This document shows, in pieces, positions 36,370 to 50,486 of a DNA stretch of 64,000 nucleotides. The position numbers and the translations under genes are program-made. The notes beneath the pieces were generated by a model that made no database searches, was not told the DNA's origin, and saw nothing but the letters and a program-made list of their open reading frames with translations. The stretch is from Streptomyces akebiae (GTDB lineage Bacteria; Actinomycetota; Actinomycetes; Streptomycetales; Streptomycetaceae), in the NCBI RefSeq assembly GCF_019599145.1, contig NZ_CP080647.1, positions 3,968,001-4,032,000 of the forward strand. Direction: 5' to 3'. The first letter of the stretch is position 1; each line of letters begins with the position of its first letter.

Positions 36370-37582
36370 AACCACTTACGGTAGCTCCCGCCGGTACGGC
36401 CCCCGCGCGGGTGAGCAGGTCGGCAAGTCGGTCGGTCACCACTTCGGGATGCTCCAGCATCACCAGATGCCCCGCGTCCGGCACGAGCACCAGTTCCGCG
36501 TCCGGCAGCAGATCGGCGATGGCCTCGCTGTGCTCGCTCGGGGTGACCAGGTCCTTGACCCCGGCCAGCACGAGCACCGGCAGCTCGGTGAACGTCGTGA
36601 GCGCCTCGGTCTTGTCGTGCTCGGTGAACGCCGGATAGAACTCGGCGACGACGTCGATGGGCGTACCCTCGATCATCCGTTCGGCGAACCGCGCGACCGC
36701 CGGGTCGACGTCCCGCGACGCGAACGAGTACCGCTTGATGATCCCGGCGAACAGATCGGCGGTCGCCCGCCGCCCCCGCTCCACCAGCGCGGCCTGCTGC
36801 CCGAGCGCCCTCAGCACCCCCGGCAGCACCCGCCGCACCGCGTTGACCCCGGCGACGGGCAGCCCGAAGTTGACCTCGCCGAGCCGCCCCGACGACGTAC
36901 CGACCAGCGCGACGGCGACGACCCGCTCGCGGATCAGCTCCGGGAAGTGCGCGGCCAGCGCCATCACCGTCATGCCGCCCATGGAGTGACCGACGAGCAC
37001 GATGGGCCCCTCGGGCACCGCCGCGTCGATGACGGCCTTGAGGTCGCGGCCCAGCTGGTCGATGGTGACCGGCAGTCCGTCGCGCACCCCGGACACCCCG
37101 CGCTCGGAGCGGCCGTGGCTGCGCTGGTCCCAGTGCACGGTCCGGACGACACCGCGCAGCGCGGCCCGCTGGAAGTGCCACGAGTCCTGGTTGAGGCAGT
37201 AGCCGTGGCTGAAGACGACGGTGACGGGGGCCGGTGCCTTGCGGCCGAAGAGACGGCGTCTGCGGGGCGAGAGGCCCGCCTCGGGCTCGACGTCGTCGAC
37301 CTCGTAGTACAGCTCGGTGCCGTCGTCGGCGACCGCCTTGCCGGGGAGGCCGCGCAGCGCCCCGTACGGGCCGGTGGAGTCGAGCGCCAGGCGGGCCTTC
37401 CTGCGCATGCCGCGCCCGACGGTGAGCCGCTCTATGGCGACGCCGGCCGCCGCGCCCGCCGCGACGACGCCTATCGCCGCCCCCGCGACCCCGGCTCTGC
37501 GCCAGATGCCGTCGCCGGACGCGGCCGTGGCTGCGGCCGCGCTCGCGACGGCCTCCACGGCCTCGGCGCTGCTCTCGCTCAC
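36335..37582 (-). CDS. Alpha/beta hydrolase with N-terminal membrane segment
   Basis: 415 residues from GTG 37582; GAGGAG 6-7 nt upstream clearly decides this start over the longer frame. A hydrophobic segment (AGVAGAAIGVVAAGAAAGVA) near residue 35 probably anchors it. The hydrolase core has VVFSHGYCLNQDSWHFQ, VHWDQRSHGRSERG, the nucleophile elbow LVGHSMGGMTVMAL, the acid Asp in VLAGVKDLVTP and the His in PDAGHLVMLEHPE. The substrate is unknown. It is a steady neighbour of alr and tsaE in actinobacteria. Confidence 0.9.
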   Translation of the reverse strand: MSESSAEAVEAVASAAAATAASGDGIWRRAGVAGAAIGVVAAGAAAGVAIERLTVGRGMRRKARLALDSTGPYGALRGLPGKAVADDGTELYYEVDDVEPEAGLSPRRRRLFGRKAPAPVTVVFSHGYCLNQDSWHFQRAALRGVVRTVHWDQRSHGRSERGVSGVRDGLPVTIDQLGRDLKAVIDAAVPEGPIVLVGHSMGGMTVMALAAHFPELIRERVVAVALVGTSSGRLGEVNFGLPVAGVNAVRRVLPGVLRALGQQAALVERGRRATADLFAGIIKRYSFASRDVDPAVARFAERMIEGTPIDVVAEFYPAFTEHDKTEALTTFTELPVLVLAGVKDLVTPSEHSEAIADLLPDAELVLVPDAGHLVMLEHPEVVTDRLADLLTRAGAVPAGATVSGYGSASSTARPG

Positions 37583-37726
37583 GTCCCGCTCCTCTTCTCC
37601 GGCCTGTCCGGTTCCACTGTCGCTCCGCACGCCTGTACGGAGTTACCCGTCTCGTTCGTCTTTCACCTACTCGTGTTCAGGTGCCCGGGATCCCCATCCT
37701 CACGGCCCCCGGTCGTCCGCGCCCGC

Positions 37727-38887
37727 TCACTCACCCGTGTCGACGTAGACGCGCGGAACGCGGGTTCCGATGCGCGTCACGATCTCGTACGCGATGGTCC
37801 CGGCCGCCTTCGCCCAGTCCTCGGCGGTCGGTTCACCGCCGTCGCCGACCCCGAACAGCACGACCTCGTCCCCGGCGGCGGGTTCGTCCCCGCCGAGGTC
37901 GACGACGAACTGGTCCATGGCGACCCGGCCCGCGACCGTCCGCCATTTGCCGCCGACCAGGACGGGCCCGCTGCCGGAGGCGTGCCGGGGGATGCCGTCC
38001 GCGTAGCCGACGGGGACCAGACCGAGGGTCGTGGCGCCGGGCGTGACGTAGTGGTGGCCGTAGCTGACGCCGTGACCCGCGGAGACGTGTTTGACCAGTG
38101 CGAGCGAGGCGCTGAGCCGCATCACCGGCCGCAGCCCGAGGTCGGCCGAACTGCCCAGCTCCGGGCTGGGCGAGATGCCGTAGACCGCGATGCCCGCCCG
38201 TACGAGGTCGAAGTGGGCGTCGGGACGGGTGAGGGTGGCCGGCGAGTTGGCGATGTGCCGCACCTCGGGGCGCACGCCCCGGCCCTCCGCGTACCCGACC
38301 ATGTCGCGGAAGCGGGTGAGCTGGGCGTCGATGGACGGGTGACCCGGCTCGTCGGCGCACGCGAGGTGCGACCAGAGTCCGGTGACCTTCACGAGCCCCT
38401 CGGCCTCGGCCCGCAGCGCCTCGGCGACCAACTCCGGCCAGTCCTCGGGCTGACAGCCGTTGCGCCCGAGCCCGGTGTCGGCCTTCAGCTGCACACGGGC
38501 GCGCAGGCCCGCCTGCCGGGCGGCGTCGGTGACCTCCCGCAGCGCCCACAACCCGCTGACCGCGACATCGAGATCCGCCTCGACCGCCTCGCGCCAGGGC
38601 CCGCCCGGCGCCCAGAGCCAGCACATCAGCCGCCCCGACAGCCCCGCCGCGCGCAGCGCCAACGCCTCCTCGGGCGTGGCCGTCCCGAGCCAGGTGGCCC
38701 CCGCCTCGACCGCGGCCCGCGCACACCGCACGGCGCCGTGGCCGTAGGCGTCCGACTTGACGACGGCCATCAGCTCGGCGCCCGGCGCCGACGCGCGCAG
38801 CGTGCGCACATTGGCCCGCAGGGCGTCCAGATCGATCTCCGCCCGGGCCCGAAGGGGCGCGTGCGGCACAGGTGCTGTCTCACTCAT
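37727..38887 (-). CDS. alr: Alanine racemase
   Basis: 386 residues, a PLP enzyme that converts L-Ala to D-Ala for peptidoglycan. The PLP Lys is in MAVVKSDAYGHGAVR (near residue 44). Other signatures are VQLKADTGLGRNG, RHIANSPATL, RAGIAVYGISPS and VPVGYADGIPRH with the catalytic Tyr region. MDQFVVDLG occurs near the C-terminal beta domain. ATG 38887 was chosen; the conserved sequence begins about 15 residues in. It is divergent from glmS, so D-Ala and amino-sugar supply share one intergenic region. Confidence 0.96.
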   Translation of the reverse strand: MSETAPVPHAPLRARAEIDLDALRANVRTLRASAPGAELMAVVKSDAYGHGAVRCARAAVEAGATWLGTATPEEALALRAAGLSGRLMCWLWAPGGPWREAVEADLDVAVSGLWALREVTDAARQAGLRARVQLKADTGLGRNGCQPEDWPELVAEALRAEAEGLVKVTGLWSHLACADEPGHPSIDAQLTRFRDMVGYAEGRGVRPEVRHIANSPATLTRPDAHFDLVRAGIAVYGISPSPELGSSADLGLRPVMRLSASLALVKHVSAGHGVSYGHHYVTPGATTLGLVPVGYADGIPRHASGSGPVLVGGKWRTVAGRVAMDQFVVDLGGDEPAAGDEVVLFGVGDGGEPTAEDWAKAAGTIAYEIVTRIGTRVPRVYVDTGE

Positions 38888-38987
38888 GTCAGCCCCAGTG
38901 TCGCAGAGCGCACGACCCCCCGGGCGAACGGGCGCACCCCGCCTCGCAAAGGAGCGCCGAACCCGACCCACCTGACCCACAGCCCCA

Positions 38988-39016
38988 CTGACCCACACCG
39001 AACTGTCACGTACAGT
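38988..39016 (+). promoter_or_regulatory. glmS promoter
   Basis: CTGACC (38988-38993) and TACAGT (39011-39016) are 17 nt apart. The -10 box is the right arm of an ACTGT-CACGT-ACAGT inverted repeat, so a repressor could mask it. The 5' leader would be about 42 nt, too short for a glmS ribozyme. Confidence 0.6.
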
Positions 39017-39064
39017 CACACTCGACACACGACAGGTCGCGAACAGCACAACACAGGGGTTTCT

Positions 39065-40912
<1,848 letters not shown>

Positions 40913-40976
40913 GCGGCCGGGGCTCGCGGCGCTGGGGCGGGTGCGGCGTCCGCCTGGGGCCAGGGCGGCGTCGGGC

Positions 40977-41100
40977 GGGAGCCTGGAACACCCGGCCAGG
41001 CCCACGAGCGGAGCCTGGAAACGCCCGGCCAAGCCCACGAGCGGGAGCCTGGAAACGCCCGGCCAAGCCCACGAGCGGGAGCCTGGAAGGCGCCTGGCCG
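40977..41100. repeat. 33-34-bp minisatellite between glmS and acpS
   Basis: Four head-to-tail copies: 40977-41009, 41010-41042, 41043-41076 and a partial 41077-41100. Copies 2 and 3 are identical apart from one leading G; copy 1 has three changes. The unit begins GGGAGCCTGGAAACGCCCGG. It ends 27 nt before the acpS -10 box. Confidence 0.88.
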
Positions 41101-41511: not shown

Positions 41512-41707
41512 GGGGCCGCCGCCCTCCGCCCCTGCTCTCCCTGCGGGCCATCGTGCCGCTGGGGCGGCACGGGTGGGCGCAGACGGCACCTCGCCACCGC
41601 CGAGCAGCGGAACCCCACCACCGACCCACCCCGCCGAAGCCCACGCCACCCACCCCCTGCACCCCACGCCCTGCACCCCACCCCCTCCCCAAGGCAGACT
41701 CGTCCCC

Positions 41708-43174
41708 ATGCGCTCAGCCCACCGTGTAGAAACCGTCCGCACAGCCGAACGCACCCTCATGGCCCGCCTCCCCGAAGGCGCCCTGATGCAGCGCGCGGCC
41801 GCAGGTCTCGCCGCGGCCTGCGCGGACGTGCTCCCCCGCCGCGTCTACGGCAGCCGCGTCGTCCTCCTCACCGGCAGCGGCGACAACGGCGGCGACACCC
41901 TCTACGCCGGCGCCCGCCTGGCCAGGCGCGGCGCGGGCGTGACCGCCGTCCTCCTCGCCCCCGACCGCACCCACCCGGACGCCCTCAGGGCCCTCCTGCG
42001 AGCGGGCGGCACCACGACCACCGCCCACTCCGCCACCACCCCCACCGCCCTCGCCCGCGCCGACCTCGTCCTGGACGGCATCGTCGGCATCGGCGGCAGG
42101 GGCGGCCTCCGCCCCGACGCCGCCCACCTCGCCGACCTCCTCGCCGACTCTCCCGCCACGGTCGTCGCCGTGGACCTCCCGAGCGGTGTCGAGCCGGACA
42201 CCGGTGAGGTGCGCGGCGCGGCCGTCCGCGCCGACCTCACCGTCACCTTCGGCACCCACAAACCGGGCCTGCTCGTCGACCCGGCCCGCGAGTACGCCGG
42301 CTCGGTCCGCCTGATCGACATCGGCCTGGCGGAGACACTCCCGCCGACCCCGGCCCTGGAGTCCCTCCAGCACGCCGACGTGGCCGCCCTCCTCCCCCGC
42401 CCCACCGGCGAGAGCGACAAGTACCGCAGGGGAGTCGTGGGCGTCGCGGCGGGCTCGACCCGCTACCCGGGCGCGGCGGTCCTCGCGGTCGCGGGCGCCC
42501 TGCGCGGCGGCGCGGGCGCCGTCCGCTATGTGGGCGCCGCCACCGAAGCGGTCCTCGCCCGCTACCCGGAGACCCTCGTCTCGAACACGGGCCCGAAGAA
42601 GGCGGGCCGGGTCCAGGCCTGGGTCGCGGGCCCCGGCGCGGGCGACGACCCCACCCCCGTCGCGGAGGCCCTCGCCTCCGACGTCCCGGTCCTCCTGGAC
42701 GCGGACGGCCTGCGCCTCGCCGACCGCGACACGGTCCGCACCCGCGAGGCCCCCACCCTGATGACCCCGCACGCGGGAGAGGCCGCCGCCCTGCTGGGAG
42801 TCTCCCGTGAGGAGGTCGAGGCAGCCCGCCTCACGGCCGTACGCGACCTGGCCCGCGCCTACGACGCCACGGTCCTCCTCAAGGGCTCCACCACCCTCAT
42901 CGCCACCCCGGACCCCGACACCCCGGTCCGCGTCAACCCCACCGGCACCCCCTGGCTCGCCACCGCCGGCAGCGGCGACGTCCTCTCCGGCCTGGCAGGC
43001 TCCCTCCTGGCCGCCGGCCTCCCCCCGCTGGACGCGGCGAGCACGGCGGCCTACCTCCACGGCCTTGCGGGCCGCTACGCCGCCGACGGCGCCCCGACGG
43101 GGGCCCATGACGTGGCGGAGGCGATCCCGGCGGCCTGGCGGGACATCACGAGAACAGTGCCGTACCACCCTTGA
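41708..43174 (+). CDS. nnr: Bifunctional NAD(P)H-hydrate epimerase / ADP-dependent dehydratase
   Basis: 488 residues, repairing hydrated NADH and NADPH. The N-terminal YjeF epimerase domain (1 to about 215) shows EGALMQRAAAGLA, VVLLTGSGDNGGDTLYAGAR and VAVDLPSGVEPDTGEV. The C-terminal ribokinase-like dehydratase domain (about 225-480) has GVVGVAAGSTRYPGAAVLA, APTLMTPHAGEAAALLG, VLLKGSTTLIATPD and the catalytic Asp in ATAGSGDVLSGLAGSLLAAG. The start ATG 41708 is supported by onset of conservation. Its 3' end overlaps the convergent membrane-protein gene by 29 nt. Confidence 0.93.
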   Translation: MRSAHRVETVRTAERTLMARLPEGALMQRAAAGLAAACADVLPRRVYGSRVVLLTGSGDNGGDTLYAGARLARRGAGVTAVLLAPDRTHPDALRALLRAGGTTTTAHSATTPTALARADLVLDGIVGIGGRGGLRPDAAHLADLLADSPATVVAVDLPSGVEPDTGEVRGAAVRADLTVTFGTHKPGLLVDPAREYAGSVRLIDIGLAETLPPTPALESLQHADVAALLPRPTGESDKYRRGVVGVAAGSTRYPGAAVLAVAGALRGGAGAVRYVGAATEAVLARYPETLVSNTGPKKAGRVQAWVAGPGAGDDPTPVAEALASDVPVLLDADGLRLADRDTVRTREAPTLMTPHAGEAAALLGVSREEVEAARLTAVRDLARAYDATVLLKGSTTLIATPDPDTPVRVNPTGTPWLATAGSGDVLSGLAGSLLAAGLPPLDAASTAAYLHGLAGRYAADGAPTGAHDVAEAIPAAWRDITRTVPYHP

Positions 43175-43676
43175 CGAGCAACGCGACGATCAGGACGGTG
43201 GTCGAGGCGAAAAAGATCAGTTCCACGACGGGCGGCGCCGGGGTCACGGTGACGTCTCCGGCCCCCGGCTCCGCCTGTCGCGGTCGCATCCGCTCCAGTT
43301 CGTCAATGACCCGGCGATGACGGCCGAAGGACGGCCAGCGGCTGAACGCCTGAACCTCGACCGTGCGGTCTCCTTCCAGCGTGAGGCTGAGACCGGTCCT
43401 GTCGTCCCAGTTCACACCCCGCAGCGTCGCCCAGGGGATTTCGTACCGGCGGGCACTGTTGCGTACGACCAGAGTGTCCTGGTCGTAGCGCACCAGCGGA
43501 ACCAACTGCGCCCGTCCTGCGAACGCGCCGATGCAGAGGAGCATGACGAGAGCCGCGAGCTTCCAGATGGCCGCGTCCCTCCAGGCCGGCAACGCAGCGA
43601 GAACAGCTCCCGTCACGGCGGCGATGACCAGGGCACCCATGACCTGCCGCTCCCGCCAGGGCTTCACACGTCGCAT
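43146..43676 (-). CDS. Three-helix PH-like membrane protein, candidate RHS immunity protein
   Basis: 176 residues. Two adjacent N-terminal helices (MGALVIAAVTGAVLAAL; KLAALVMLLCIGAFAG) lead to a PH-like domain (LVVRNSARRYEIPWATLRGV, LTLEGDRTVEVQAF). One C-terminal helix (VVELIFFASTTVLIVALLVK) follows. The start ATG 43676 has AGAAGGAAG just before it. It begins only 14 nt past the stop of the giant RHS gene and is on the same strand, the position of immunity genes in polymorphic toxin loci. No known immunity family is recognised. The domain layout resembles the protein at 31360-32103. Confidence 0.75.
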   Translation of the reverse strand: MRRVKPWRERQVMGALVIAAVTGAVLAALPAWRDAAIWKLAALVMLLCIGAFAGRAQLVPLVRYDQDTLVVRNSARRYEIPWATLRGVNWDDRTGLSLTLEGDRTVEVQAFSRWPSFGRHRRVIDELERMRPRQAEPGAGDVTVTPAPPVVELIFFASTTVLIVALLVKGGTALFS

Positions 43677-43690
43677 CGCGCTTCCTTCTG

Positions 43691-46600
43691 TCAACCACCG
43701 AAGAGGCCTCTGACACCGCTCCATGCACTGCGAGCCCCGTCGGCGACCGACCGTCCCGCCTGCACCCCCCAGGTCCGGAGCGTACCGATCCCCTGCAGGG
43801 CCTCACCCGACTTGAGCATCGGCACAAGGCCGCCCGCGATTCCGACGACGCCGGCCGCGCATCCCAGACTCATCCAGTTGCCCCAGCAGGCGTCGGCGGC
43901 GACGACGACGCCCACACCCACCGCCAACAGGCCGAGGACGGGACCGATAGGAGTTGCGGCGGTCATCACCGCAGCGATACCCAGCCCGGTACTGATCATG
44001 CCGAGCGTGTCCGCCGTGTCATCGCTCAGGAAGGCGTGATCATCTGGCTCCTCCTCCGCGACCTGGATGTTCTTCGCCGTACCCAGGCACTTGTTCACGT
44101 CCGCGGACTTCTGGCACACCTCGAAGAAGTAGGCCATCTTCGCCTTCTTGACATCAGAGGTGGCGTTCTGCATGAAGGTGTCGTACTGGGCCTGCGTCAG
44201 CCACGGAGTCCCTTGGTAGCCGAGGTCCTTGGACACCCAGTCGTAGGCCTGATCCGGAAGCTTCTTCGTGACGGTCTTTCCGGTGATGGACCCGTCACCC
44301 ACCTGGGTTCCCTTGGTGTAGTCGACCGTTCCGGTCGACGGGTCGTAGCCGACGGCGTCCTGCACGGCCTTATCGCAGTACTTCAGGTCGTACTGGCACG
44401 AGTTCGGCCGAGAACCGATCTCGAAGCCGGTCGGGTCGCTGTACCGGACGGGGTTGTTCGCCCCGTAGCTGTAGGCGTTCATCTCCTGGGGCGAGTACGG
44501 CTTGTTGAGCTCGTCCCCGCTCAGGAACCGGCCCAGATCGGGGTCGTACATCCGGGCGCCGAGCATGGACAGCCCGGTGGAGTCGTCCTCCGACTGGCCC
44601 AGGAATCCCCGGTCGGTGGACGAGGGAAGATTCGTGCTGCCTCGTTGCTTACCGAAGGCCGTGTAGCGTCGGCGCAGGACGGCGCCTCCCATGGAGACCA
44701 GCATGGATGTCGAGGCCTGTGCGTCGCCGAGGATCCAGGTCAGCTTGCCGGCCGCAGAGCCGTCGGCCACCCGCATCGCGACGTTGGTGCCCGCAGCGGA
44801 GTAGTAACGGGTGGCGGAAGCGCTCGCCGAACCGGTCCTGCGCAGTTCGTGACCGTCGAGGTACAGCACCTTCTCAGTCGGCGAGGCCCGCAGCAGAACA
44901 TTTCCGTCCGTGTCGTACACGTAGGTCGACACCTCGTCACCCGTCGACTTCTCTTGGGTGATCTTGCTGATCCGGTTCAGGCCGTTCCACTCCAGCGCCG
45001 AACTCACCCCGTCGACCGTGCGTGAGGTCATCTGCCCGGCGGCGTTGTAGCCGAAGGAGTCGGAACCAGCCTTGACGACCGCGTGCGGGCGCGCCTGCTC
45101 CGCCGTGTACGAGGTCTCGTCCGCGCTGTAACCCGGGTAGGTGTAGTCCTTGTCCGTGGTTCCCAGGGACGTGGTCTCCCGCACAGCCTGGATGTTGCCC
45201 AGTTCGTCATACGTCCAAGTCGTGTCGTACGGGTCGAGGGAACTGCTCATGTCCGGTGTCGCGGCGCCGGAGCAGCCGTCGCTCTCCTGTGTCGTCCACG
45301 CCCGGCTGAGCCGGTTGAGCTCGTCGTAGGTGAAGCACTCGCTCTGTCCGACGACCTTGTCCGTGACGCCGGTGAGCTGCCCGCCGAGATCCCGGGTGAA
45401 AGTGTCGTCCTGCGCGGTGGTGGTGGTACCCCCCGTGGTCACGGTGGTCTTCGCACCGGCCAGGAGACCGGTGCCGTCGGCGTCGTCGTACGTGAGTGCC
45501 CGGCTCACGGTGGCGTCGGAGCCCCCGCTCTCGCCGTAGACACGGCCGTTGAGCCGGCCGAGCCGGTCGAAGCCGATCGACGACTGGTACGTTCCCAGCG
45601 GGCTGGCCACCCTGGACGGCAGGCCCTGCGCTGTGTAGGCGGTGGTCACCGTCTCCGCGGGCAGCCCACCGATCTGCGGATAGCTCACCGACGTGACGTG
45701 GTCAGCCAAGTCGTAGCCGTAGGCGAAGGTGTAAGTGCCGGCGAGTCCCGAACCGTCGTCCGGAATCGTCGTGGTCCGGCCGACGACCCGGCCACGGGTG
45801 TCGTATCCCGTGACGGTCTGCGTATAGGCCTTGCCGTCCTGGTAGGAGGTGGCCGTCGCCAGCTTGCCCTTGCCGCCCGGCGCACTGTCGTAGGCCAGCC
45901 GGGAAAGCGTCGTCGTGCCCTGTGACACCGTGGTGGGCCGTCGGAGGGCGTCGTAGGTGTAGCTCAGTGTCGTGCTGTTGCCGACTGTGGTGGCCGTGGA
46001 GATCTGGCCATTCTCGTCGTAGGTGACAGACGAGGCGCCCGTGTCCGGATCGTCCGACGTCAGCCGCTCCCCCAGCCAGTTGTATGTGTACTCGGTGGTG
46101 TTCCCCTTGGGGTCGGTGATCTTCCTGAGGCCCCCACTGCGGGTGTACTCGTACGCCGTGGCCGCCGCTCCGGTCGGGCCGTACTCGACGATCCGTGTGG
46201 TCTGGCCGAAGACGTCCGTGTAGGTGTCGGAGCGCTCGCCCACGGCGGGCACGACGGTCGTGTGGTCACCGTGGTAGTAGGTGCGGGAGTTCATCACGGG
46301 CTGGGGCTGCTCGTTGACGAGGATCTGCGTCCCCGTCGTCCGTCCCGCCCAGTCGATGAGGAGGTCGGTGTAGGACGGCAGATCGGCCACCGTGGGCAGG
46401 ACCATGCCGGAGCCCGCCGCCGAGGAGTTGTAGAACGGCGCTGACGTGCCCGTTGCGTTACCGGAGGTGTCGTACCGCGTGGAGACGACCGTACGGCCGG
46501 ACCCGCCCGGAGCGGTCGCCTGGGTCTCCCGCGTGCGTCCGAGTCCGTCCAGGTAGAGGTATGAGTAGATGTAGTTCGAACCGGACTGCAGGACCCCGGT

Positions 46601-49600
46601 CGACACCCTGGGCGCCCCCGTCACCGTGTCCGGCACCCCGTCGCCGTTGGTTCCGGTCGGCACGGCATAGGTGAACTTCATCGACGAGATACCGTCCGGG
46701 TAGTTGCCGATCTCCGTCGGCTTCCAGACGGTGCTGTAGCGGCCGACCGAATCGTGCACGAGCCGGGTGGTCCGGCCGTTGGCGTCCAGGATCCGGTACG
46801 GGGTGCCCCACAGACGAGAGGACCAGGTGGTCGTGGACATCGCGGTGCCCGAGCCGCTGCCGTCCGGGTCCGGGGTGGTGACCTTCACTCCATCGGTGGG
46901 CCATGTCGTGTTCGGCGAGTAGGTCGTGGTCGTCTTGCTGGCCTTGCCGTCGTAAGTGGCCACGACCCGGCCGGCGTCGTCGTAGTCCGTCTTGATGGAG
47001 CGGTATGTCGACGCGTTGGTGTACGTGCGGAGTTCCGTCACATTGGCGTCGGCCAACGCCGTGTCGTTGCCCGCCACCGACGTGGACCCGTCGTACAGCG
47101 TCGCCGTGAACGTGTCCTGGTTGGCGGCCGCGCGGTTCGCACAGTCGGCCGCGTAGTGGCGGCGCTCGTCCTCGACGATCATCCAGCGTTTGACGTCGGA
47201 GTCGGGGAAGTTGTCCGTGCTGTAGGCGCGGCCGTACGTGGTGCAGCGGTTGTCGGCGACCGCCTCCTCGCCCCAGTCGTTGGTCCGCAACGGCAGACCG
47301 TACGTGGTGCTGGTGGAGGACGTGTCGTCGTACTCGTCCATGACCGTGCGCACCCGCCAGCCCTGCGACGTCATCTGATGTGTCGACGTCTTGCTGTCGC
47401 GGACGAAGCGGGCGTCGGGCAGCCCCTCGTACGCGGCGGTGACGTGGGTCCAGTACTCCTTGAACGTCCGCTCGTGCGAGCCGCCGTCGCCATCGCGTTT
47501 GCTGGTCTCGATGGTCTTGCCCGCGAGCCAGGCCGAGTCCGTGTACTCGGTGCCCTGACCGTCCTTGACCTTCACGGTACGGGTCGCGGACGAGTCCGTC
47601 TTGGACGTGCGGTCGCCGCTCAGGCCACGGTAGAGCCAGTGGTAGGTGGACGCCGCGTTGCTCTTGGTGCCGGTGAAGACCTCGACCTGCTGGTAGCCCC
47701 GCCAGTCGGACCAGGTCTCGTCCTCGTCGGCCACCAACGGGTCGTTGGTGAACCTCCAGCCACCGCCACCGTTGTACTCGTAGCGCGTGGTCATGTTCGG
47801 GTCGCCGTCGCCGTCGGCACCTTGACCGACACCGGGGTCCACGGACACCTGGGTGACCAGGTACTTCTTGAACCAGCCGGTCTTCGTCTGCGCCGAGCCC
47901 TCGGGCGCCCACTTCTGCCAGAAGCACAGCTGGGTGTTGGAGGACTGGCTCGGCAAGGCGTCTATGTCACAGGCGTCCGGCTGACCATAGGTCACGCTCG
48001 TCGCCGCGCCGAGATCGCCGTACACCTTGGTGACTCGGCGGAAGTTGAGCAGCGAGGACCCGACCTGGTTGTCCTTCCACTCACCGTTGAAGTTGATGAC
48101 GGGCAGGCGCAGGTCGGTGCCATCGCCGTAGCCCTGGCGCTGGACGTAGTCGAGCCAGAGGGTCTTGCCGACGGTGCCGTCGGGGTTGGGCAGGCCGTGC
48201 TTGGTCTGGTACTGCATGGCCGGGTCCCATGTGGAACCGCCGTCGTTGCTGACGAAGGTCTTGATGTCCCACAGCATGTCCGTGGTGAAGAACGTGGGGT
48301 AGTACGTCATGCCGGCGCAGTAGCTGTCGTCGGCGGTGCCATCGCACATGAGGTCGGTCGGGACGTCCGGGTACGACTCCGGGGTACTGGAGATGCCGGG
48401 ACAGGCTGCGGGTTCGTCGCCCAGAGGGTCCGCCTCCGCCATGCGTTCGACACAGCGGCCGACGTGGCTCAGCTCAACCTTGGCGGGCAGCAGGGCGCCG
48501 CTGATCTGGGAGGCCCAGCCGTACTCGATGCGGGTGAGATAGCCGCCGGCGTCGTACGAACGCGCCTTGTCGGTGTTCGCGACCGAACGGTAGTGGTTCT
48601 TCTGCTTGTCGTAGAAGTAGGCGTTCTCGACCTCGTTGGGGTCGACGACCCGGTCGAGGTTCCAGCGCCAGGCCTGGGTGCACGGCTCGGGGTACTGAGC
48701 GTGGCACGGCTCGCTGGTGTCGTTGCCGACGACGGGCATCGTGTAGACGGAGTTCGTGGAGGCGTCGTTGCGCTCGCTGCGGCCCCAGCCGAAGTAGTAG
48801 CGCATGCCGTCCGGGGTGGAGATCACCCAGTACTCGTCGTCGCTGCCGTGGCCGTTCCAGAGGTGCTGGACCCGCCAGCCGGGGTCGTCCTGCAGGTGAT
48901 AGGAGCCTGTGCCATTGCCGTCCTGCACCAGCTGGGAGGTGACACCGTTGAGGCTGATGACGTAGACGGCGCCGTCGGGTTCCGTGCCGGTGTTCGGCGA
49001 CTCCCAGCACATGTCGCCGATGGTGGACAGGCCGTCCTGGGCACAGTTCTTGTAACGCCGCTCGATGTAGCCGACCTCAAGGTCCCAGCCCATGCCGACC
49101 CACGACGCCTGGTTGTTGGTGGCCGACGTACGGCCGTCCACCGACTGCGAGTTGTAGCTGAGGGCCAGTGATGGCGTGGTACCGAAGGGGGCCTTGGGCA
49201 GTTGGACCGGCAGGCTGTAGGTGAAGGCCCCGGATCCGGTGGACACGTCCCACGAACCGGTGGGGCTCAGTGTCGATGCCCGGTAGTCCCCCTCGTCGGA
49301 CGAGGACCCAGAGGTGACCGCCAGCACGGTGGCCCCGGACGCGCTCGCGTAGGTCGACCGGCTGAACTGGGAGGATCCGTCGTCGATCGCCACGGCCGCG
49401 GGGTCGGCGTCGGCGTACACAGTCGCCGAGAGAGTCCCGGTCCCGACGTCGTTGTCGGCTTCGATGAACTGCTTCAGATCCGGCGAACAGCCCTTCTTCT
49501 CCGGGGTGGTGAGCGCGCAGGCCGGCATCTGGACCAGCCGGAGGCGGTCGGCGAAGTCACCGCCGTGGGCGTATTGGAAACCGGAGTAGTCGAGCGTCAC

Positions 49601-50185
49601 CCGCACCGGGCCGGGGTCCTCGACGCCGTCCTCGCGGGTGAGGCGAAGCCCCATGCCTATGCCACCGATCGACTCCACCTGAGAGCGGTCGAGCAACCGG
49701 ACATCCACGTTCTCGGGGACACTTCCGGTCCGTACCAGTCGGGTGTCTCCGCCGGCGGGGGTTCCCTGCTTCGAGGTCTTCTGCCACTTCGCGAACTTCG
49801 CCTGGGGCGGTGTGCCTGCCACCACGCGCTCCGTGGCGGAGGGTTTCGCGACGGTCACCACGGCGGACTTCGCCGCCCGGCTCGTGCCGTCCGCGTCGAC
49901 CACCGTGCCCGACGTCGATACGGCCAGGGCGTCACCGGCGGCGGCTTTCCGCAGGTCGACGGAGGCTGCGGTCCTCTTGGGCCACGTCGTCTTCGGGGCC
50001 TTCGTCATCGTCTGCTCGGCCCTCTGCCGGGGCACGGTCTGGGCTCCACCCGTCGGCACGCTGACCGTCTTGTCCTTCGGTTTCGCCACGTCCACTACAG
50101 CGGCGAAGGCCGGTACGGACAGAAGACCGCACAGCACCGCACTGGACACGGACACGACAAGGCCACGTCTGGCAGACCGCCCCAC
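43691..50185 (-). CDS. Giant secreted YD/RHS-repeat protein, probable polymorphic toxin carrier
   Basis: About 2,164 residues from GTG 50185; a GTG at 50212 would add nine residues. GGGGGTG before 50185 and the resulting signal peptide (RSARRGLVVSVSS, then GLLSVPAFA) favour the shorter form. The N-terminal two-thirds is a large beta-rich region (GSGAFTYSLPVQLPKAPFG, WVGMGWDLEVGYIERRY). From about residue 1360 YD repeats follow (YTYDALRRPTTV, YDTRGRVVGRT, FTYDELNRLSRAW). The RHS core closes with FLGQSEDDSTGLSMLGARMY, DPDLGRFLSGDE and YSYGANNPVRYSDPTG at about residue 1928. After that comes a unique tail of about 245 residues, Cys-containing and ending in strongly hydrophobic, Gly-rich stretches. 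The likely role is a contact- or secretion-delivered toxin shell. Confidence 0.9.
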   Translation of the reverse strand: MGRSARRGLVVSVSSAVLCGLLSVPAFAAVVDVAKPKDKTVSVPTGGAQTVPRQRAEQTMTKAPKTTWPKRTAASVDLRKAAAGDALAVSTSGTVVDADGTSRAAKSAVVTVAKPSATERVVAGTPPQAKFAKWQKTSKQGTPAGGDTRLVRTGSVPENVDVRLLDRSQVESIGGIGMGLRLTREDGVEDPGPVRVTLDYSGFQYAHGGDFADRLRLVQMPACALTTPEKKGCSPDLKQFIEADNDVGTGTLSATVYADADPAAVAIDDGSSQFSRSTYASASGATVLAVTSGSSSDEGDYRASTLSPTGSWDVSTGSGAFTYSLPVQLPKAPFGTTPSLALSYNSQSVDGRTSATNNQASWVGMGWDLEVGYIERRYKNCAQDGLSTIGDMCWESPNTGTEPDGAVYVISLNGVTSQLVQDGNGTGSYHLQDDPGWRVQHLWNGHGSDDEYWVISTPDGMRYYFGWGRSERNDASTNSVYTMPVVGNDTSEPCHAQYPEPCTQAWRWNLDRVVDPNEVENAYFYDKQKNHYRSVANTDKARSYDAGGYLTRIEYGWASQISGALLPAKVELSHVGRCVERMAEADPLGDEPAACPGISSTPESYPDVPTDLMCDGTADDSYCAGMTYYPTFFTTDMLWDIKTFVSNDGGSTWDPAMQYQTKHGLPNPDGTVGKTLWLDYVQRQGYGDGTDLRLPVINFNGEWKDNQVGSSLLNFRRVTKVYGDLGAATSVTYGQPDACDIDALPSQSSNTQLCFWQKWAPEGSAQTKTGWFKKYLVTQVSVDPGVGQGADGDGDPNMTTRYEYNGGGGWRFTNDPLVADEDETWSDWRGYQQVEVFTGTKSNAASTYHWLYRGLSGDRTSKTDSSATRTVKVKDGQGTEYTDSAWLAGKTIETSKRDGDGGSHERTFKEYWTHVTAAYEGLPDARFVRDSKTSTHQMTSQGWRVRTVMDEYDDTSSTSTTYGLPLRTNDWGEEAVADNRCTTYGRAYSTDNFPDSDVKRWMIVEDERRHYAADCANRAAANQDTFTATLYDGSTSVAGNDTALADANVTELRTYTNASTYRSIKTDYDDAGRVVATYDGKASKTTTTYSPNTTWPTDGVKVTTPDPDGSGSGTAMSTTTWSSRLWGTPYRILDANGRTTRLVHDSVGRYSTVWKPTEIGNYPDGISSMKFTYAVPTGTNGDGVPDTVTGAPRVSTGVLQSGSNYIYSYLYLDGLGRTRETQATAPGGSGRTVVSTRYDTSGNATGTSAPFYNSSAAGSGMVLPTVADLPSYTDLLIDWAGRTTGTQILVNEQPQPVMNSRTYYHGDHTTVVPAVGERSDTYTDVFGQTTRIVEYGPTGAAATAYEYTRSGGLRKITDPKGNTTEYTYNWLGERLTSDDPDTGASSVTYDENGQISTATTVGNSTTLSYTYDALRRPTTVSQGTTTLSRLAYDSAPGGKGKLATATSYQDGKAYTQTVTGYDTRGRVVGRTTTIPDDGSGLAGTYTFAYGYDLADHVTSVSYPQIGGLPAETVTTAYTAQGLPSRVASPLGTYQSSIGFDRLGRLNGRVYGESGGSDATVSRALTYDDADGTGLLAGAKTTVTTGGTTTTAQDDTFTRDLGGQLTGVTDKVVGQSECFTYDELNRLSRAWTTQESDGCSGAATPDMSSSLDPYDTTWTYDELGNIQAVRETTSLGTTDKDYTYPGYSADETSYTAEQARPHAVVKAGSDSFGYNAAGQMTSRTVDGVSSALEWNGLNRISKITQEKSTGDEVSTYVYDTDGNVLLRASPTEKVLYLDGHELRRTGSASASATRYYSAAGTNVAMRVADGSAAGKLTWILGDAQASTSMLVSMGGAVLRRRYTAFGKQRGSTNLPSSTDRGFLGQSEDDSTGLSMLGARMYDPDLGRFLSGDELNKPYSPQEMNAYSYGANNPVRYSDPTGFEIGSRPNSCQYDLKYCDKAVQDAVGYDPSTGTVDYTKGTQVGDGSITGKTVTKKLPDQAYDWVSKDLGYQGTPWLTQAQYDTFMQNATSDVKKAKMAYFFEVCQKSADVNKCLGTAKNIQVAEEEPDDHAFLSDDTADTLGMISTGLGIAAVMTAATPIGPVLGLLAVGVGVVVAADACWGNWMSLGCAAGVVGIAGGLVPMLKSGEALQGIGTLRTWGVQAGRSVADGARSAWSGVRGLFGG

Positions 50186-50486
50186 AACCACACCCCCGTG
50201 CAAACACATCACGCATACCGAGCGAACAGACTCGGGGCGGGACGCTAACTCACACGTGACTCAAATCCAACGCCTACAAAAGACCGCACAGCGGACAGTC
50301 CCATGTAAAGGCCGTCTAAATTTCTGGGAATGAAAAACCGCTCACCCAACCGACTCGTCCAAGCCAACCGGAGCTCTACCTGACCCGAATGCCAGGTGCT
50401 TTAATGACGCGCCAGAAGCGACCCTCCATGGAGCGCCAACGGTCCATCGGCGGGTTCACACGCATTCCACGGGGGGCTCCACCAGC
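50186..50486. other. Divergent promoter region of the RHS and beta-propeller-like genes
   Basis: This 301-bp gap is less GC-rich than its surroundings. It includes CGTCTAAATTTCTGGG near 50312 and an ACAAAAGACC stretch near 50275, suggesting promoters for both flanking secreted proteins. I see no clear -35/-10 pair, no ORF and no repeats. Confidence 0.35.

Follow-up and report, generated by a model that had tools for sequence, protein, structure and literature searches.

Among described toxin systems, the Rhs pore-forming effector Tse5 of Pseudomonas aeruginosa is paired with Tsi5, an immunity protein with two transmembrane (TM) helices (PMC9637101, PMC10684867), and the ionophore toxins of Escherichia coli contact-dependent growth inhibition (CDI) are paired with CdiI proteins described as two-helix hairpins of 72–100 residues (PMC11630599). 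The umbrella toxin UmbC2 of Streptomyces coelicolor has been called predicted pore-forming (PMC11062931), and a 4TM toxin label is used for umbrella toxins in PMC13274773. A bacterial teneurin-like protein (BiTLP) is reported to combine a YD-shell with a hydrophobic C-terminal domain whose export renders E. coli permeable, and immunity genes lie downstream (PMC13018210). EsxX/ExiCD and TspA/TsaI of the Staphylococcus aureus type VII secretion system (T7SS) are described as membrane-depolarising toxins with membrane-bound immunity proteins, orphan immunity genes being found elsewhere (PMC12744356). Among polymorphic toxin domains, PMC3482391 names one that is pore-forming (Tox-WTIP, proteobacteria), together with two immunity families that have two TM helices. 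Here, we describe an RHS gene and the small membrane-protein gene that follows it on the minus strand of a 64,000-nucleotide stretch of Streptomyces akebiae (contig NZ_CP080647.1, positions 3,968,001 to 4,032,000), referred to below as the window.

Comparison of related loci established the gene arrangement, the exchange of tails between RHS shells, the linkage of partner families to tails, the occurrence of small genes away from RHS genes and the position of the variation in close relatives. The architecture had been read in the original prediction as that of a toxin-immunity pair, and this reading gained support, at the level of sequence, from tail exchange, from tail-linked partners and from the occurrence of the small gene apart from RHS genes in two of six loci. 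A downstream gene that stays constant while the tails vary, named beforehand as the contrary outcome, was not what was found: the downstream family changes with the tail. We therefore consider it likely that the locus encodes a polymorphic toxin-immunity pair with a membrane-depolarising tail, the nature of the tail being judged most likely because of the analogy with Tse5/Tsi5 and the CDI ionophores, the hydrophobic end and the membrane partner.

Tails, their exchange and their partners

Homologous tails that follow the RHS core have in common a linker and a helical domain (…WLxKDLGYxG…C…C, the LGYxG domain) and differ beyond it, and relatives diverge abruptly at the junction between this entry-like half and the membrane half. 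In the window, hydrophobic helices make up the membrane half together with a short loop bounded by Cys and a C-terminal helix that is cationic and amphipathic; the hydropathy of this half is high, its helices are of low confidence in the AlphaFold2 (AF2) model and its amphipathic end carries a net charge of +3. The LGYxG domain was modelled as a block with a predicted local distance difference test (pLDDT) score of 74–87 over tail residues 61–120. A profile for this domain matched 19 of the 120 homologues listed (133 were found). Of these 19 proteins, 18 exceeded the hydropathy threshold over their last 140 residues, the remaining one lying slightly under it (1.58); of the 101 homologues with no match, 8 exceeded it. 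These counts are descriptive because the profile was built partly from the scored proteins. Whole tails with the LGYxG domain span ∼230–270 residues, and those designated tail A end in GARSxWxx[VI]xxxFG in all five loci. No Pfam family was found in the window tail at E 0.1, and a Pfam scan of 14 tails gave two single sub-threshold matches only. The tail thus shows no enzyme domain, and its hydrophobic half probably inserts into a membrane.

Shells and tails were compared pairwise among 19 homologues, with letters of our own for the tail types. P0015 (type A) and P0026 (type B) are 93% identical in their shells and 29% identical over their last 110 residues. P0015 and P0016, which have the same tail type, are 37% identical in their shells and 51% identical at their ends. 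Similarly, the shell of the window protein is 33% identical to those of the loci L017 and L018, the tail halves being 55–63% identical. Such exchange of tails on shells is a signature of polymorphic toxins as they are described in PMC3482391.

Tail A is followed by a PH-type gene (that is, one encoding a pleckstrin homology-like domain) at gaps of 14–85 nt in all five loci that carry it: the window, L014 (S. griseus NRRL WC-3645), L016 (S. resistomycificus), L017 (S. hokutonensis) and L018 (Streptomyces sp. STR69). Given that four of these five were found through a search with the small gene, it is relevant that a search with the tail only returned G000 (the host genome), G343 and G295 as the best of 392 genomes, all three with a PH-type gene; because the top three by tail are the three strong small-gene matches and the searches were separate, the pairing lies above chance. 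The PH-type protein encoded behind tail C (L023/L037, genome G014) is a diverged one, 25% identical to that of the window. Behind tail B, which is found in L038 and in L051, its close relative, the partner is a 2TM protein of 96 residues. Tail D (L039/L143) and the related tails of L052, L054 and L056 are followed by members of one family of ∼190-residue proteins with 3–4 TM helices, which spans Streptomyces (L143) and a second genus, g7 (L052, L054 and L056). The three membrane partner families displayed no significant similarity to one another, and soluble downstream families occur as well. In a comparison of shell pieces of up to 450 residues that covered 9 of 12 loci (L052, L054 and L056 were left out, as the core end was not found), the window protein showed 53% identity to L038, which has a 2TM partner, and to L039, which has a 4TM partner, and 31–32% identity to L017 and L018. 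Thus the window shell is closer to L038 and L039, its partner is shared with L017 and L018, and the partner family follows the tail, not the shell. The tails of L052, L054 and L056 bear the LGYxG motif and end in KKLKFW, KRLKFW or KHLKFW.

A wider control was performed on 69 RHS loci, treated by one rule with a home-made gene finder. These comprised 10 loci of the host genome, 29 taken from the top of a long list that a core search of the other genomes in the genus produced, 26 recovered by tail searches (including L143) and 4 by the small-gene search. A partner was counted as membrane at two or more TM helices, 1TM calls being scored as not membrane, and the 15 loci with no downstream call (1 with a membrane-type and 14 with soluble tails) stand outside the table used for Fisher's test. 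The gene call at L014 began at an internal start, which leaves its class unaffected. Membrane partners followed 11 of 13 membrane-type tails and 2 of 41 soluble tails (Fisher 6e-8, the 69 loci being phylogenetically non-independent); when the four loci from the small-gene search were removed, the values were 7 of 9 and 2 of 41 (1e-5). The two soluble-tail exceptions are L052, whose tail lies just under the threshold, and L110.

The RHS tail of L110 (G000:C1:9709999-9713700) has no classical TM helix, ends in FLKFW and is followed by an 86-aa 2TM frame; it is possibly a different membrane-acting pair. The tail of L118 opens with an extreme hydrophobic run (hydropathy 3.6). At L047 and L048, RHS-like tails with a hydrophobic Cys-loop motif (DACFSKQWGSCA) lie near frames that by eye are transposase-like in function.

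Few genomes hold a strong relative of the small gene: 3 of 392 with a single sequence as query and 4 of 353 with the family profile; the profile gave some match, mostly weak, in 82 of the 353 genomes of the genus. All four strong matches (>160 bits among the 353 genomes) adjoin an RHS gene with tail A or tail C. At two of the six small-gene loci (L015 and L019) there was no RHS frame among the surrounding frames listed. Six neighbourhoods of weaker matches, from the remaining 78 genomes, were inspected: five showed no RHS frame, among them G192, with no RHS among the frames listed across 3.8 kb upstream, and only G185 had its match behind an RHS remnant. At this last locus (L173, G185:C18:20000-25500), a diverged but open PH-type gene (E 9e-7, 30.7 bits to the family profile) lies 15 nt behind an RHS remnant with a broken frame. 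The remnant carries a hydrophobic piece in another frame and gave no LGYxG match. The orphan small genes and the G185 remnant fit protection kept after loss of the toxin. Strain NPDC002680 has four paralogues of the small protein (P0143, P0147, P0150 and P0153), three of them on contigs of equal length, and so probably on a single contig, and two with close locus tags, in the manner of a poly-immunity array.

Position of variation in close relatives

Between L017 and L018, the final 500 residues of the shell are 96% identical and the entry half of the tail is 94% identical; at the membrane half there is a sharp drop, to 57%. Their small proteins are 53% identical over residues 1–58 (TM1–TM2), where the ratio of nonsynonymous to synonymous substitution rates (dN/dS) is 0.85, and 92–93% identical in the PH domain, linker and TM3 (92% in the PH domain, 93% in TM3). 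Differing sites number 27 of 58 in residues 1–58 and 9 of 118 in the rest (p 6.5e-9). At the DNA level, the difference consists mainly of one low-identity block that extends from the entry/membrane junction of the tail to about the TM2/PH junction of the small protein, a second dip around the linker being a length difference. In two pairs of relatives, dN/dS of the small gene is below 1. That the block ends inside the small gene implies that a match between the tail and the PH domain is not required, and TM1–TM2 is proposed as the part that confers specificity. The position of the variation, as read from these sequences, suggests recognition inside the membrane.

Features of the locus and its neighbours

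Table 1. Positions of the RHS gene, its tail and the small downstream gene in the window
Feature	Position	Strand	Basis
RHS (YD-repeat) protein, 2,164 aa, GTG start	43691..50185	-	open frame
Probable Sec signal peptide, residues 1-28 (AFA-A)	50102..50185	-	read by eye
RHS repeat-associated core, shell end	44426..44665	-	TIGR03696, residues 1850-1929 of the 2,173-residue frame, E 1.3e-18
Putative autoproteolysis Asp pair (D at 44513-44515, D at 44435-44437)	44435..44515	-	pattern and Tse5 analogy
Tail predicted to be released, 243 aa	43694..44422	-	from predicted cut
Conserved helical LGYxG domain, two Cys, proposed entry-like part	44069..44269	-	AF2 helices, profile
Variable membrane module, 117 aa	43694..44044	-	hydropathy, AF2 helices, amphipathic moment, divergence in relatives
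14-nt gap with Shine-Dalgarno GAAGGA, RHS stop to small gene	43677..43690	-	
Candidate immunity protein, 176 aa, ATG at 43676, stop at 43146	43146..43676	-	open frame
TM1 (8-28) and TM2 (36-56), proposed specificity part	43509..43655	-	hydropathy, AF2
PH-like domain, bPH_6-related, residues 57-134	43275..43508	-	Pfam, AF2
TM3, residues 150-175	43152..43229	-	hydropathy, AF2

The original prediction had described a signal-bearing RHS protein of about 2,160 residues followed 14 nt later on the same strand by a small three-helix membrane protein with its own ribosome site, and both descriptions hold (Table 1). The N terminus of the RHS protein, read by eye, is probably a Sec-type signal (RSARR, then LVVSVSSAVLCGLLSV, then AFA-A); an alternative upstream GTG at 50212 would give a frame of 2,173 residues. 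In addition to the TIGR03696 core, one of 10 such RHS cores in the host genome, the Pfam families SpvB, RHS_repeat and DUF6443 match the protein, every one of them below its cut-off. An Asp pair with a spacing of 26 was recovered by pattern in 42 of 52 homologues, and both Asp residues were identified by eye in the other 10. An autoproteolytic role is proposed for the pair because of its likeness to D1141 and D1164 of Tse5 as described in PMC10684867, and by this analogy the cut is predicted at DPTGF-EIGS, between 44423 and 44422.

Hydropathy analysis revealed three membrane regions in the small protein. In the AF2 model (mean pLDDT 67) the three TM helices flank six strands (61–108) and a helix (119–134) in a PH-like layout. 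The original prediction recognised no family. This stands in so far as the match of the small protein to bPH_6 (PF10756; E 0.0074, 16.7 bits) lies below the cut-off of 22, and needs correction in so far as 15 of 17 scanned members of the small-protein family match bPH_6 with an E of at most 0.01, and P0134 and P0139 clear the curated cut-off. A probable PH-like domain is common to both; bPH_6 is a general family, whereas the small protein belongs to a branch with a 2TM-PH-1TM arrangement, in which a WPSFGRH motif is present in 16 of 17 aligned members and for which the named sources include Streptomyces. A search of solved structures by sequence gave a best E of 0.3, and plasmids gave no match to the small protein. 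That a PH-like domain is unusual for an immunity protein, as had been remarked, agrees with literature searches that turned up none: no relevant PH-domain immunity protein was among the matches listed, one of which (PMC9550806) contains the term pleckstrin homology.

No terminator-like site was found in 43000-43900. The last 29 nt of the small gene (43146-43174) convergently overlap the 3′ end of a plus-strand gene, 41573-43174, which encodes an NAD(P)H-hydrate dehydratase/epimerase (PF01256, PF03853). On the other side, a plus-strand propeller protein (PF21311; 50487-51587) starts divergently next to the RHS gene, and a 73% identical propeller gene (L023:2578-3555) flanks the tail-C RHS of G014, a frame of merely ∼410 residues, in the same arrangement. 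The presence of related propeller neighbours beside tail-A and tail-C RHS genes suggests a common chromosomal site with a different tail cassette. Further away, in 36449-41038, the plus frame 36449-40912 has Pfam matches to SIS and glutamine amidotransferase domains, and the minus frame 37727-41038, which overlaps it, matches alanine racemase domains; one or both frames exceed the true gene length.

Proposed mechanism, alternatives and relation to known systems

In the mechanism we propose, the signal peptide would export the RHS protein and the shell would enclose the tail, as judged from RHS proteins in general. The shell would then cut itself and free the 243-residue tail, and the LGYxG helical half may assist the tail in reaching a neighbouring cell's envelope or getting into it. 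Insertion of the last ∼117 residues into the cytoplasmic membrane, where they would probably form a pore or channel, would collapse the membrane potential. The small protein would reside in the membrane of the producer and its sisters through TM1, TM2 and TM3, and contacts made by TM1–TM2 inside the bilayer may block the tail, an assignment that follows the position of the variation; the PH-like domain would serve as a constant scaffold and is probably cytoplasmic because of four N-terminal positive charges, from which the topology is predicted.

A number of observations weigh against this reading. The whole-tail AF2 model is weak (pLDDT 56), its structural matches resemble generic helical bundles and a Pfam scan gave no match between the tail and known pore-formers. 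A glycine zipper was considered as the mechanism and rejected: the tail has 3 such motifs compared with 2.0 in shuffled sequences (P 0.33), and L018, L037 and L038 have none. At L118 a membrane-type tail has a soluble downstream call (the candidates are doubtful), L063 has a membrane-type tail with a 1TM call and L047 has no call. Just one of the 10 RHS loci in the host genome has a membrane-type tail, so that the association in the wider control derives mostly from mutually related loci picked by tail similarity. As for the small protein, L014 and L016 show the order seen in L017 and L018, but the contrast is weak (66% in TM1–TM2, compared with 77% in the PH domain and 67% in TM3). Synonymous divergence (dS) between L017 and L018 is raised in both the tail and the small-gene parts, and, with the block being contiguous, a single recombination tract could explain their joint divergence. 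Co-divergence within tail A was also examined and rejected: among the five sequences, partner identity tracks the shell (r 0.95) and the entry half (0.92) over the membrane half (0.41). The argument therefore rests on tail exchange, on the matching of families and on the L017/L018 block.

Three other explanations were weighed. The locus could be a toxin-immunity pair in which the hydrophobic tail is merely a translocation hairpin, the toxin having another envelope target (lipid, lipid II or a membrane enzyme) or being a remnant that has lost an enzymatic end. Tails with a membrane segment before a soluble end do exist in the host and other genus genomes (L108, L117, L140), and the lack of a pore-former match speaks for this account, but we consider it unlikely: the terminal motif common to five tail-A loci is unlike random truncation, the length of the tails leaves little room for a further domain and the partners of LGYxG tails are mostly membrane proteins.

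The remaining two explanations deny that the small protein confers immunity. As an accessory of the RHS protein (a membrane anchor, chaperone or export helper) it could well have three TM helices and be encoded on the same strand as the next gene in all five tail-A loci; that it follows the tail and not the shell, that dissimilar families replace it behind other tails and that its gene occurs with no RHS frame at L015 and L019 make such a role very improbable. Least probable of all is that a general bPH_6 membrane protein, functionally unlinked to the RHS gene, lies there by chance. Proteins of this kind are widespread, if mostly as weak matches, in the genus, yet every strong match stands beside a tail-A or tail-C RHS gene, and the weaker G185 match lies behind an RHS remnant.

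The membrane-depolarising toxin-immunity pair thus remains the preferred reading. Beyond it, we tentatively propose, as a combined view that may or may not hold in all its parts, that secreted RHS membrane toxins form a modular family spanning Streptomyces and another genus of the family to which it belongs. Its members would combine one conserved LGYxG entry-like domain with any of three or more interchangeable membrane modules, and each module would have a family of membrane immunity proteins to itself. In one of these immunity families, the PH-scaffold proteins would owe their specificity to the TM1–TM2 hairpin, and the membrane half of the toxin and this hairpin would be exchanged together as a ∼600-bp cassette that ends near the TM2/PH junction.

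Among the systems introduced above, the umbrella toxins are, like the window protein, secreted Streptomyces protein toxins with a predicted membrane-acting tail, a likeness by description; they are built on an umbrella scaffold and not on RHS, and PH-type immunity is not among their descriptions in the cited sources. BiTLP corresponds, also by description, in its YD-shell, hydrophobic C-terminal domain and downstream partner, and the account given in PMC13018210 describes no PH-type partner. EsxX and TspA correspond in the predicted membrane-acting toxin, the membrane immunity and the orphan immunity genes, but, according to PMC12744356, they have T7SS carriers (EsxX is an LXG protein) and a glycine zipper, and EsxX immunity is a polytopic pair. 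The window tail differs from the glycine-zipper toxins TelE and EsxX in that its motifs are at shuffle background. The literature matches listed included no study of the function of an RHS toxin from Streptomyces.

The CDI ionophores, as described, have entry and membrane halves, membrane-embedded immunity and polymorphism in both the membrane half and the immunity protein, all of which apply to the window system; by contrast, they have a CdiA carrier and an entry half that differs between groups, whereas here the entry-like half is shared and the membrane half is exchanged. Tse5 and Tsi5 resemble the window pair, in the accounts cited, in the RHS shell, the two Asp residues (catalytic in Tse5) before the tail, the hydrophobic tail with no predicted enzyme activity and the adjacent small membrane immunity protein, a likeness by description. 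Tse5 belongs to a Gram-negative type VI secretion system, whereas the window protein has a signal peptide (by eye), a Streptomyces host, an LGYxG half and a three-helix PH-like immunity protein. If the proposal is correct, natural immunity proteins with 92% identical PH domains would provide a simple test of immunity recognition within the bilayer, and a PH domain would have a use not met in our literature searches. The best reading of the locus, by analogy, is that of a Gram-positive counterpart of the Tse5/Tsi5 and CDI ionophore pairs.

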